This document shows, in pieces, positions 12,140 through 16,259 of a stretch of 64,000 nucleotides of DNA. The stretch spans positions 3,348,001 through 3,412,000 of the forward strand of contig NZ_CP066362.1 of assembly GCF_030323865.1 (NCBI RefSeq), given 5' to 3'. Below the pieces are notes generated by a model that saw only the letters and a list, made by a program, of their open reading frames with translations, searched no databases and was not told the DNA's origin. Within the stretch, counting starts at the first letter, position 1, and each line of letters opens with the position of its first letter. Origin of the DNA: Pseudarthrobacter defluvii (GTDB lineage Bacteria; Actinomycetota; Actinomycetes; Actinomycetales; Micrococcaceae). The position numbers and the translations under genes are program-made.

Positions 12140-12352
12140 TCAGGCCGTCTCGGTGTGGCCGTCCACGACAGCACCCTTGAGGTACTGTTCGACGGCGTTC
12201 TCGGGGACCCGGTAGGAGCGGCCGAAGCGCACTGCCGGCATTTCGCCCGAGTGCACCAGCCGGTAGACAGTCATTTTGGAGACGCGCATGACCTCGGCTA
12301 CTTCAGCCACGGTCAGGAACTTCGCGTTGGAGAAGTTCTGTTCTGCCGACAT
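12140..12352 (-). CDS. Excisionase/MerR-like helix-turn-helix protein
   Basis: 70 residues from an ATG with AGGGA upstream. LTVAEVAEVMRVSKMTVYRLV is the winged HTH, followed by SGEMPAVRFGRSYRVPENAVEQYL, the usual wing of the HTH_17 (excisionase) family. It is a stand-alone DNA-binding domain conserved next to the bS22 gene in actinobacteria, not part of a prophage here. Targets unknown. It lies 151 nt upstream of bS22 on the same strand. Confidence 0.88.
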   Translation of the reverse strand: MSAEQNFSNAKFLTVAEVAEVMRVSKMTVYRLVHSGEMPAVRFGRSYRVPENAVEQYLKGAVVDGHTETA

Positions 12353-12506
12353 TTCCCTATTTTCCTTTGCTGACGGATGGACAACAGTGACCCCAGGTAC
12401 GTGCCAATGCGGTGTTCCGATGCTGAGCCATCCACCAACCACCTAAATAGATACTCTAGATGTTCCTGTGGCAGATGTGAAAGTAGCGGGTCCCCTATTT
12501 CGTCCC

Positions 12507-13628
12507 CTAATTCGACTCCCGGCGCTTCCGTGCCGATGCCGCCAGCTGCTCCAGGACGGACGCGGAAACATCCCAGTCCATGCAGGCATCCGTGACGCTT
12601 TGGCCGTAGACCAGTTCAGAGCGCCCTGCTGCGTGTTCCGCGACGTCCAGGTTCTGGGCCCCGCCCACCAGGAAGCTCTCCAGCATGACGCCTGCCACGG
12701 CGCGCGCCGCGGTCCCGCCGTCCTCGAGCTGCGCGCCGATCTCCAGCGCCACCTCGGCCTGCCGGTGGTGGCTCTTGCCGCTGTTGGCATGGCTGGCGTC
12801 GACGATGAGGCGCGGGTTCAGTCCCTTGCCCGCCAGCTCGTTGGAGGCACGTTCGACGTCGGCCGCTGAGTAGTTGGGCCCCTTGCGGCCGCCGCGGAGG
12901 ATGACGTGGGTGTCCGGGTTGCCGGCGGTTGCCACCAGCGCGGCCCGGCCCTCGCCGTCGATCCCCAGGAACGCCTGGGCCGCCGCCGCGGCCCCGCAGG
13001 CGTCAATGGCCACCTGCAGGCCGCCGTCGGTCCCGTTCTTGAAGCCGATGGGCATGGACAGTCCGGAGGCAAGCTGCCGGTGGATCTGGCTTTCCGTGGT
13101 GCGGGCACCGATGGCGCCCCACGAGATGAGGTCGGCCATGTACTGGGGGCTGATCGGCTCCAGGAATTCGGTGGCGGTGGGCAGGCCCAGCGCGGTGACC
13201 TGCTGCAGGAACTGCCGGGCCGTGCGGAGGCCGGTGACCATGTCGTGGCTGCCGTCCAGGCGGGGATCGTTGATCAGGCCCTTCCAGCCCACCGTGGTGC
13301 GCGGCTTTTCGAAGTAGGTCCGCATGACGATCAGCAGGTCTTCCTTGTGCTTTTCGGCCTGGCTGACCAGCCGGCGGGCGTACTCCAGCCCTGCCTTGGG
13401 GTCATGGATGGAACAGGGACCTACGATGACCAGCAGGCGGTCGTCCACGCCGTCCATGATGGCGCGGACCTCATCGCGTCCGCGTTCGACGACGGCAGCA
13501 GCCCGGGCGTCAAGGGGCAGTTTGGAGAGGAGCGCCGATGGGGCGGGCAATGGGGTGAACTCGCTGACCCGCAGGTTCGACGTGGACTTGGTCTTGATAG
13601 CGGGGGCTGCTGCTGTTGCGGTGCTCAT
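12507..13628 (-). CDS. aroG: 3-deoxy-7-phosphoheptulonate (DAHP) synthase, class I
   Basis: 373 residues of the AroF/G/H family: VGPCSIHDP near residue 70, RTYFEKPRTTVGWKG near 105, GARTTESQIHR near 180 and DASHANSGK near 265. It condenses phosphoenolpyruvate and erythrose 4-phosphate, the first step of aromatic amino acid synthesis. ATG is preceded by AGGAC. The 235-nt upstream region holds an aromatic leader peptide and hairpins, so it is probably controlled by attenuation. Confidence 0.93.
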   Translation of the reverse strand: MSTATAAAPAIKTKSTSNLRVSEFTPLPAPSALLSKLPLDARAAAVVERGRDEVRAIMDGVDDRLLVIVGPCSIHDPKAGLEYARRLVSQAEKHKEDLLIVMRTYFEKPRTTVGWKGLINDPRLDGSHDMVTGLRTARQFLQQVTALGLPTATEFLEPISPQYMADLISWGAIGARTTESQIHRQLASGLSMPIGFKNGTDGGLQVAIDACGAAAAAQAFLGIDGEGRAALVATAGNPDTHVILRGGRKGPNYSAADVERASNELAGKGLNPRLIVDASHANSGKSHHRQAEVALEIGAQLEDGGTAARAVAGVMLESFLVGGAQNLDVAEHAAGRSELVYGQSVTDACMDWDVSASVLEQLAASARKRRESN

Positions 13629-13692
13629 GTTCGGGGTCCTGTTCCAGATGGGAAGCGGGCCCGGATTTCAGAACCCGCCGGAGAAACGGCGA

Positions 13693-13773
13693 AGGGCAGA
13701 GAATGATCTCTGCCCTGCTGGCTCTGAAGGAATGCTGGATGCGTGTCAGTTAGACGCGGGCCCCTCCAGAGCC
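13693..13773 (-). promoter_or_regulatory. Predicted attenuator hairpins in the aroG leader
   Basis: Two stems are visible. One pairs 13767-13773 (inside the leader ORF) with 13720-13726 (GGCTCTG/CAGAGCC). The other is a 9-bp stem, 13708-13716 with 13693-13701 (AGGGCAGAG). The second has no U-tract, so whether it is a terminator or an RBS-proximal structure is unclear. A small third hairpin follows at about 13675-13690. Confidence 0.5.
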
Positions 13774-13805
13774 AACGAAAAATACGCATACCAACGGTTA
13801 GTCAT
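13746..13805 (-). CDS. Aromatic amino acid leader peptide of aroG
   Basis: A 19-residue ORF, MTNRWYAYFSLALEGPASN, ends in TGA 118 nt before aroG. The run W-Y-A-Y-F places all three aromatic amino acids within five codons, as expected for ribosome-mediated attenuation of a DAHP synthase. There is no Shine-Dalgarno, but the ATG lies 7 nt after a TATGGT -10 box, so it would be translated from a leaderless transcript. The downstream part overlaps a stem of the attenuator. Function is inferred from position and composition. Confidence 0.75.
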   Translation of the reverse strand: MTNRWYAYFSLALEGPASN

Positions 13806-13812
13806 GGAAGAG

Positions 13813-13841
13813 ACCATAAACCCGGGTGCGCGTGGCCGCAA
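13813..13841 (-). promoter_or_regulatory. Promoter of aroG leader (TTGCGG-17-TATGGT)
   Basis: The -35 box TTGCGG (13836-13841) and -10 box TATGGT (13813-13818) are 17 nt apart. Transcription would start at or next to the leader peptide ATG at 13805. Confidence 0.6.
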
Positions 13842-13864
13842 AATCAGGGTCCGTCACAATTGCT

Positions 13865-15190
13865 TCATCGCGACTCCTGGAGGCCGGCCACCAGTTCGGC
13901 GTGCTTTTGGTCCGTGAGCCGGTACCAGGACATGATGACGACGGCGGCCAGCACCAGTGCGGCCGGCAGCAGTCCGGCGGCGGCGCGGATCGCCGTGAGC
14001 GCCGGTGCCGCCTGCTCCTGGACCGACGAGGAGTAGCCGCCCCACGCCAGCGCGAAGGCGACCAATCCGCCACCGAAGCCCATGCCAAGCTTCCGGGTGG
14101 CCGCCAGAAGGGCGTAGTTGATGCCCTGGACCCGGACGCCGGTTTTCCACTCCCCGTATTCCACGGTGTCCGCGATGAGTGCCCAGGTGAGGATACTTAC
14201 CGTCGCCGCCGAGAGCTGGGCCAGGACCATCCCGGCCACCGCCAGCCAGGGGGCTTCTGCCGGCGCCAGGAAAACCACCAGTCCACCCGCGGCGCCGAGC
14301 ATGCAGCCGGCGGCGAACACTGCCTTCTTGCCCCATCTGTTGACCGGGCGCGGCATCAGCACGGCAAGCGCCAGGGTAATGACCACCTGCGTTGCCGCCA
14401 TCAGGGGAAAGAGGTCCAGGCGGGACAGGACATCGCGCAGGTAGTAAAACTGCGCCGCCACGGTGGCGGAATTGCCGGTCACCAGCAGTACGGAACTGAG
14501 GCACAGGACCACCAGCGGCGAATTGACCCTGAGCGCGTCAGTGGTTTGGCGCCAGGTGATTTTGGGAACGCTGCCGGCAACTTGTTCCCGGCAGGCGGTC
14601 CCGGTGAACACGTACAGGCCGGAGCCCAGCACCGCGAAGACCAGCGTCATCACGGTGAAGATCTGCTGGACGTCCCCGCCCCTGCCCAGGAGCGGTGCCA
14701 CGAAGAACCCAAGCGTCGCCCCTACCGACAGGCCGCCGATGGTCCGCGCTCCGGCCAGCCTGGCCCGGTCACGGGGGTCCTGGGTCATGGCGCCCACCAG
14801 GCAGCCGTAGGGGACATTCACCAGGCTGTAGGCAAGACAGACCAGGAAGTAGGTGCAGTAGGCGTAGAGCAGCTTCAGGCCTGGCTCGACGTCGGGCACA
14901 TGGAATACAGCCACGCCCAGCACCAGCGGAACAAAGCCGAAGAGCAGGAAGGGCCGGAACTTTCCCCACCGATCGCTGTGAAAACGGTCGACGATCCGGC
15001 CGGCAGCGATGTCCGTGAAGGCGTTGAACACCCGCGCAACCACCAGCAGGGTACCGGCAGCTGCCGCTCCGATCCCGGCCACGTCGGTGTAGTAGACCAG
15101 CAGGAACATGTTGGCAGTACTGATGATCATGCTGTTGGCTGCGTCGCCGGCGCCGTAGCCTAGGATCGCGGCCCTGTTCAATGGCTTCAT
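13865..15190 (-). CDS. GPH-family sugar:cation symporter
   Basis: 441 residues, about twelve membrane spans. It opens with NRAAILGYGAGDAANSMI, the N-terminal signature of the glycoside-pentoside-hexuronide (MelB-like) family, with DRWGKFRPFLLFG in the first cytoplasmic loop. ATG is preceded by AGGAAA. It is the last gene of the rhamnose operon, 49 nt after the esterase, so L-rhamnose or a rhamnoside is the likely substrate. The C-terminal half carries the usual GPH motif region VNRWGKK. Confidence 0.85.
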   Translation of the reverse strand: MKPLNRAAILGYGAGDAANSMIISTANMFLLVYYTDVAGIGAAAAGTLLVVARVFNAFTDIAAGRIVDRFHSDRWGKFRPFLLFGFVPLVLGVAVFHVPDVEPGLKLLYAYCTYFLVCLAYSLVNVPYGCLVGAMTQDPRDRARLAGARTIGGLSVGATLGFFVAPLLGRGGDVQQIFTVMTLVFAVLGSGLYVFTGTACREQVAGSVPKITWRQTTDALRVNSPLVVLCLSSVLLVTGNSATVAAQFYYLRDVLSRLDLFPLMAATQVVITLALAVLMPRPVNRWGKKAVFAAGCMLGAAGGLVVFLAPAEAPWLAVAGMVLAQLSAATVSILTWALIADTVEYGEWKTGVRVQGINYALLAATRKLGMGFGGGLVAFALAWGGYSSSVQEQAAPALTAIRAAAGLLPAALVLAAVVIMSWYRLTDQKHAELVAGLQESR

Positions 15191-15205
15191 TTTTTCCTGT
15201 CCCCA

Positions 15206-15229
15206 GGGCGAGAAACCGCTTTCTCGCCC
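15206..15229. promoter_or_regulatory. Perfect palindrome between esterase and transporter genes
   Basis: The 10-bp arms GGGCGAGAAA and TTTCTCGCCC flank CCGC. The core GAAACCGCTTTC differs by one base from the motif B-like site GAAATCGCTTTC at 59617. It could be an operator, or an intercistronic mRNA hairpin that changes expression of the transporter. Confidence 0.5.
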
Positions 15230-15239
15230 GAACAGGAAT

Positions 15240-16259
15240 CTACCCCAGAATCTTGCGCAGAAACACCAGTTGCCGGATCCACTGGTGCTCCTGGCCACCT
15301 TCGTGGTTGTTGAACCGGTACACCTCGATCTCCTTGGCAGCTCCCGTGGCTGAGGCGGCGGATGTCCCGGAGCCGTAGGCGTTGAAGCTGGCGAAGACGG
15401 TGGACGGCGGGCAGATATCGTCCATCTGGGCAGCCGAATACAGCGCCGGCGCCGTGGCATACCGGGCAAGGTTGACGCCGTCGAAATAGTTGAGGACGGC
15501 GAGGGCGTCGTCGTAGCGCTCCCGGTGCCGGGCCAGGAACTGGGCAATCTCCGGGTACGGCCCGCGCGGGGTGATGTCGATGGCGCGGGGGAAGTCCTGC
15601 AGGAACGGAACGTCGGGCAGCGCGGCGATGACGCCGTCGAGCCTTCCGGCGGTGAGCCCCGCCGTGGCCACCACCAGGCCTCCGCCCTGGCTCACCCCGG
15701 CCAGCACCACCTTGGCGGCGTCGACTGCGGGGTGGGCCTGGGTGGCTTCCACGGCGCGGAACGCGTCCACATAGACCCTGCGGTAGTAGTAGTCCTCGCG
15801 GCTGGCGATGCCCCTGGTCATGAGGCCGGCGTGCGCCACGTCCCCGGCTGACGGGTGCGGATCCGCGGTGTGCCCCAGTGTGCCGCCGTACCCCTGGCCG
15901 CGGGTGTCCATGATGAAGTGTGCGTACCCGGCCTGCGCCCAGCGCGTGTCCTGGTTCACCAGGCCGCGGCCGCCCGAGTAGCCGATGTAGTTGACCACCA
16001 CCGGAAGCCGGGCACCTGCCTCCCGGTTGGCGGGCAGGTGCAGCCAGCCTTTGACCGGTGCGCCGCCGAAGCCGGAGAAGGTCACGTCGAAGGTGTCAAT
16101 GACCGTCAGGTAGTTTTCCACCGGCTCGAAGGTTGCATTGAGCGGAAAGGCGCGGGCTTCGTCGAGGGTGGCACCCCAGAACGCGTCCAGGTCTTCCGGC
16201 GGCGTGACCTCGGAGGTGTAGGTGCGCAGCTGTGCCAGGGGAAGGTCGAAGAGGGGCAT
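15240..16259 (-). CDS. Acetylxylan esterase / cephalosporin-C deacetylase family (CE7)
   Basis: 339 residues, alpha/beta hydrolase. The opening block MPLFDLPLAQLRTYTSEVTPP and DAFWGATLDEAR are typical of CE7 (AXE1). The nucleophile motif is GVSQGGG near residue 185, with oxyanion residues near YIGYSGGRG. The Asp and His of the triad lie near the C terminus (PPSTVFASFNAY and NNHEGG). No signal peptide: it would act on imported, acetylated short oligosaccharides. It sits between rhaB and the GPH transporter, which suggests acetylated rhamnose-containing sugars. Confidence 0.88.
   Translation of the reverse strand: MPLFDLPLAQLRTYTSEVTPPEDLDAFWGATLDEARAFPLNATFEPVENYLTVIDTFDVTFSGFGGAPVKGWLHLPANREAGARLPVVVNYIGYSGGRGLVNQDTRWAQAGYAHFIMDTRGQGYGGTLGHTADPHPSAGDVAHAGLMTRGIASREDYYYRRVYVDAFRAVEATQAHPAVDAAKVVLAGVSQGGGLVVATAGLTAGRLDGVIAALPDVPFLQDFPRAIDITPRGPYPEIAQFLARHRERYDDALAVLNYFDGVNLARYATAPALYSAAQMDDICPPSTVFASFNAYGSGTSAASATGAAKEIEVYRFNNHEGGQEHQWIRQLVFLRKILG

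Follow-up and report, generated by a model that had tools for sequence, protein, structure and literature searches.

The leader region of aroG

The stretch of DNA of the soil bacterium Pseudarthrobacter defluvii analysed here (64,000 nucleotides (nt) of contig NZ_CP066362.1; below, the window, whose numbering is used throughout) carries on its minus strand aroG, the gene of a type I 3-deoxy-D-arabino-heptulosonate 7-phosphate (DAHP) synthase. Ahead of it lie a promoter-like sequence, a short open reading frame (ORF) with successive codons for tryptophan (Trp, W), tyrosine (Tyr, Y), alanine, Tyr and phenylalanine (Phe, F), and a chain of alternative RNA helices, one of which holds the aroG Shine-Dalgarno (SD) sequence (Table 1). 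A first-pass annotation, made from the sequence alone, had read this arrangement as a leaderless aromatic leader peptide followed by hairpins and had proposed attenuation. The predicted 19-residue W-Y-A-Y-F ORF is indeed present at complement(13746..13805), its stop codon 117 nt before the aroG ATG (13628..13626), and the hairpins expected after it are borne out by the 182-nt leader RNA, for which a fold of -76.3 kcal/mol was predicted (z-score -4.6; 0/200 shuffles as low). The element occurs once in the genome of the window, as judged with R1, a covariance model built on 31 leaders.

The claim that the leader ATG lies 7 nt from the -10 box and has no SD was confirmed on reading the window, and we compared it with the 128 distinct 50-nt regions preceding leader ATGs in related loci. 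A TAnnnT motif begins at -12 or -13 in 125 of these, and an SD-like motif was found in one; a leaderless start of the leader ORF is thus supported, on positional grounds. TTGn starts at -36 in 53/128 and between -37 and -34 in many. A generic sigma-70 scan found no promoter at the leader site in the window; the promoter claim rests on conserved position.

Table 1. Features of the aroG leader region, listed in the direction of transcription.
Feature	Position	Strand	Remark
-35-like hexamer TTGCGG, 17 nt above -10 box	13836..13841	minus	TTGn begins between -37 and -34 in many of 128 upstreams
-10 box TATGGT, 3' end 7 nt from leader ATG	13813..13818	minus	TAnnnT at -12/-13 in 125/128 distinct upstreams
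Leader ORF, 19 codons, MTNRWYAYFSLALEGPASN, probably leaderless	13746..13805	minus	ATG 13805..13803, stop TGA 13748..13746
Control codons Trp-Tyr-Ala-Tyr-Phe (TGG TAT GCG TAT TTT), codons 5-9	13779..13793	minus	W+Y+F in 121/128 leaders
Segment Z, within control codons	13784..13793	minus	pairs Z'
Segment A, GUUGGCUCUGGAGG, inside leader ORF, 2 nt past Phe codon	13763..13776	minus	A:B covariation
Segment Z', ACGCAUCCA, directly after leader stop	13736..13744	minus	partner-swap test with Z
Segment B, CCUUCAGAGCCAGC	13717..13730	minus	pairs A or C
Hairpin P, GGGCAGAG-AUCAUU-CUCUGCCC	13694..13715	minus	two-sided changes in 7/8 pairs, 57 sequences
Small hairpin CGCC..GGCG, competitor of C:D	13676..13691	minus	paired in 100% of cells, 31 sequences
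Segment C, GGCGGGUUCUG	13669..13679	minus	pairs B or D
Segment D, GGGCCCGC	13655..13662	minus	pairs C, or E at aroG SD
Segment E, AGGACCC, contains aroG SD	13634..13640	minus	D:E across lineages
aroG, type I DAHP synthase, 373 amino acids	12507..13628	minus	Pfam PF00793 DAHP_synth_1, E 3.2e-85

Control codons and codon choice

The aromatic codons are well conserved among relatives: W, Y and F all stand before segment A in 121 of 128 distinct leaders, the others having W+Y (five), F+Y (one) or Y (one). When 24-nt spans were compared in 57 lineages, all three aromatic residues were found in 48, the remainder being without Trp or Phe, apart from L120, whose span is an out-of-frame reading.

Codon choice is inverted between the leader and aroG. 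For Tyr, the leaders use TAT 221 times and TAC once, whereas aroG at these same loci has TAT twice and TAC 625 times; for Phe, the corresponding counts are TTT 109 and TTC 16 in the leaders against TTT 14 and TTC 863 in the genes. With each of the 57 chosen lineages contributing one leader, the counts are TAT 78, TAC 3, TTT 48 and TTC 6. Since Tyr and Phe codons ending in U are decoded via G:U wobble, slow decoding is a likely reason for their use in the leader.

A covarying series of competing helices

Pairing was assessed in two alignments, one of 31 closer sequences and one of 57 sequences fitted to the structure. In the larger, structure-fitted alignment, helices A:B, P and C:D together show two-sided changes in 19/30 pairs, C:D by itself in 7/8. 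In the partner-swap test the five proposed pairings passed and 15 control pairings failed, with z-scores of -8.7 for Z:Z' (57 sequences; 0/4000), -10.5 for A:B, -6.6 for B:C, -9.0 for C:D and -10.3 for D:E (57 sequences). The downstream helices are mutually exclusive, as B pairs with A or C, C with B or D, and D with C or E. Among the 31 closer sequences the small hairpin has two-sided changes in one pair, and Z:Z' is paired in just 88% of cells, with a single two-sided change; D:E contains one C-A mismatch in the window.

The conserved aromatic codons, the covarying hairpins and the pairings that pass the swap test support the attenuation proposed in the first-pass annotation; the poor conservation of the codons that would have told against it was not observed. 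That reading is right in kind and did not settle polarity or output. Comparison extends it by showing how deep the conservation runs and that codon choice is inverted, and by pointing to a putative relay that leads to the SD and to an apparently retuned codon set in the chorismate mutase relatives described below.

Distribution

A search of genome contigs gave, as its best 80 AroG loci in named genomes, mostly Arthrobacter and its kin, Sinomonas, Microbacterium and Brachybacterium. The element is present in all 80 and the leader pattern matched in 78; L061 and L071, which gave no pattern match, have the same element with aromatic codons that are altered, as judged by eye. In two loci (L031 and L090) segment A carries one inserted base, probably from a single event, which puts the leader out of frame past the aromatic codons, and the element persists. 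One record titled Sporosarcina beigongshangi (L050) has an AroG 79% identical to that of the window and a typical Arthrobacter-type leader, and is probably misnamed or contaminated.

Within the order, R1 matched 62/396 genomes, 59 of the matches lying directly upstream of AroG and the remaining three being weak and with no adjoining AroG. An AroG homologue (E <= 1e-60) occurs in 101 of the 396 genomes, distributed over families f1 (20), f11 (14), f13 (17), f19 (3), f8 (18) and f4 (29), the last made up mainly of small genomes that usually have AroG in two copies. Thirteen genomes outside f4 were missed by R1 and on reading all were found to carry the element, G008 (L164) included; it is present in 72/72 of the AroG-bearing genomes sampled in the order outside that family. 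R2, a second covariance model applied to the class and to the family of the window, matched 61/394 genomes of the class, with AroG downstream in 41, chorismate mutase in nine and neither in six weak cases, a breakdown that excludes four stronger matches and one weak one. In the window's family R2 matched 62/149 genomes, including four weak matches without AroG.

Related leaders before chorismate mutase genes

Nine related leaders precede chorismate mutase genes (L165, L166, L168, L169, L172, L174, L177, L178 and L182). At all of these loci but L178 the encoded protein matches Pfam CM_2 and, in part, DAHP_synth_1, the latter match falling below the Pfam cut-off in L165 and L168; by eye, the L178 product resembles a lone chorismate mutase. 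Trp codons are present in 0/9 of these leaders, Phe codons in 9/9 and Tyr codons also in 4/9. The chorismate mutase branch leads to Phe and Tyr, not to Trp, so the codon set follows the branch and has apparently been retuned there. Since a run of 4-6 T lies directly after hairpin P in eight of the nine, this branch may use transcription termination as its mode.

Proposed mechanism and alternatives

We propose that a shortage of Trp, Tyr or Phe probably raises expression of the pathway through the leader and its alternative hairpins. A stalled ribosome would mask the segment holding the control codons, and the position of the ribosome on the leader ORF would be relayed through the competing helices to the aroG SD. 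In its full extent the proposal is of an actinobacteria-wide device with a single leaderless ORF that responds to three amino acids at once, five successive competing helices that lead to the SD and a codon set retuned by branch (W-Y-F before the entry enzyme, Phe/Tyr without Trp before chorismate mutase); we give it an even chance of being correct. The attenuator as such does not depend on control of the SD through the relay, a reading that may prove mistaken. When ribosome positions were imposed on the fold, the predicted cost of opening the SD changed in the expected direction in 21/34 and in the opposite direction in 8/34, D:E being predicted in most states.

Several results weigh against this proposal. 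In the 31 closer sequences B:C has no two-sided changes, D:E is 82% paired with no covariation, and in a shuffle test of the ribosome-binding site D:E reached p<0.05 in just 5/39. At equilibrium D:E forms in 24-27/34 whatever the ribosome state, and C:D in no more than 8/34, so the last step of the relay would need co-transcriptional or ribosome-assisted folding. With the ribosome on the stop codon A:B forms, not B:C, in 30-31/34, and with a stall at the last aromatic codon A:B is kept in 33/34 if the ribosome edge is set at 12 nt and in only 15/34 if it is set at 15 nt. In genus g21 of family f8 (L164, L200, L201, L202, L205, L210 and L211) there is strong pairing between the aroG SD and segment C itself, and in the window C can also pair with E; either pairing would reverse the logic of the switch. 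In a cold-type Arthrobacter clade (L047, L049, L050, L053 and L055) D appears, by eye, to pair with a C-rich stretch above the SD. These exceptions leave room for transcription attenuation or for the opposite polarity. No element was found in the eight inspected regions (L212-L219), which come from 6 of the 29 genomes of family f4; one of them, L215, has an ORF with W-F-W and no matching helices.

Transcription attenuation would have the stalled ribosome mask A so that B:C antiterminates, C:D (or P with its tail) terminating otherwise. It has precedents of the same type in the actinobacterial trp and ilv attenuators (in the available part of PMC1262725) and in AroR-aroF, which is called transcriptional (in that of PMC11802643). 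Its polarity matches genus g21, the T-runs after P in the chorismate mutase relatives agree with it, and B:C forms in 21/34 when a ribosome on the last aromatic codon is given a 15-nt masking edge. Against it, a scan of the window detected no terminator-like site on the minus strand and with it no U-tailed intrinsic terminator before aroG; the tail of P averages 3.5 U per 9 nt (51 scorable sequences). P can form in both the A:B and the B:C states and is therefore not obviously switched, a ribosome on the Trp codon or the first Tyr codon would stand too far upstream to mask A, and D:E at the SD would close the gene in the supposed ON state. For aroG we consider termination rather unlikely.

Two further explanations concern what the ORF itself does. 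The ORF would be incidental if the leader acted as a ligand- or protein-binding structured RNA, as might be suspected from its strong conserved structure and from an Rfam scan of 13000..15500, which gave no family at the aroG leader and two chance-level matches elsewhere. The inverted codon choice, the aromatic codons that hold their position despite differing flanks and the lack of Trp codons in the leaders of chorismate mutase genes all speak for decoding, and make this explanation highly improbable. Arrest by the nascent peptide, of the TnaC or SecM kind, could be suggested by the motif ALEGP, as ALEGP/APGG-like residues recur past the aromatic block. These residues are encoded by segment A, which is itself constrained by the helices, and the C-terminus varies (a frameshift in L031/L090, ALEGQA in Sinomonas, ALEGRR in L069), so that arrest appears extremely improbable.

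Relation to known systems

Attenuators usually read one amino acid. The aroG leader resembles the trpL and pheL attenuators in that a leader ORF with control codons precedes helices that exclude one another; unlike those, which read one amino acid and end in a U-tailed terminator, it has codons for three, no such terminator in the window and more helices. In ermC-type translational attenuators, which sense an antibiotic, the position of the ribosome on the leader ORF governs the opening of the SD, and the stalled ribosome masks segment 1. Ribosome position would likewise decide SD access here; the segment masked would instead be the one with the control codons.

Like AroR-aroF, the element is a short leader peptide with aromatic codons ahead of an actinobacterial type I DAHP synthase gene. 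AroR, compared here by description only, has F-Y-F and is described as transcriptional; here the peptide contains RWYAYF and the covarying relay would end at the SD. All the attenuators of Neshat et al. 2014, on AroR-aroF of Corynebacterium glutamicum, are reportedly leaderless. According to the available text of PMC11802643 and PMC4046766, C. glutamicum AroR (Phe-Tyr-Phe) precedes aroF and responds to Phe, not to Tyr. The Acholeplasma uORFC-13-1 motif before aroF, which comprises an upstream ORF (uORF) with Phe codon(s), a ribosome-binding site and an intrinsic terminator (available part of PMC8632094), shares a uORF with Phe codon(s) preceding a DAHP synthase gene, and differs in that site and terminator, in phylum and in structure. 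Actinobacterial ileS T-boxes also have SD-sequestering hairpins for amino acid control of translation start (available part of PMC1262725); unlike the aroG leader, they bind tRNA and have no leader peptide.

No description of the aroG leader element was found in the open-access library searched. Neither the attenuators listed in the available part of PMC1262725 nor the eight S. lividans leaders in that of PMC8079986 include an aro case, PMC2864571 and PMC2965389 gave no match to the aro terms used, and the available part of PMC10272879 describes an ilvB uORF.

If the proposal holds, a three-product attenuator at the entry enzyme of a branched pathway, present in several actinobacterial families, would provide nature's own clear test of how the evolution of control codons follows their place in a pathway. 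The relay suggests a way in which high-GC bacteria with leaderless translation and few U-tailed terminators could regulate aromatic synthesis at the translational level, a point relevant to the engineering of such producers.

Neighbouring genes

The same-strand gene upstream of the leader (13865..15163, minus) resembles, by eye, that of a GPH/MFS-type transporter; its end lies about 24 nt from the -35 box. Downstream of aroG, also on the same strand (12140..12442, minus), lies a small ORF that by eye resembles an excisionase-like helix-turn-helix protein.
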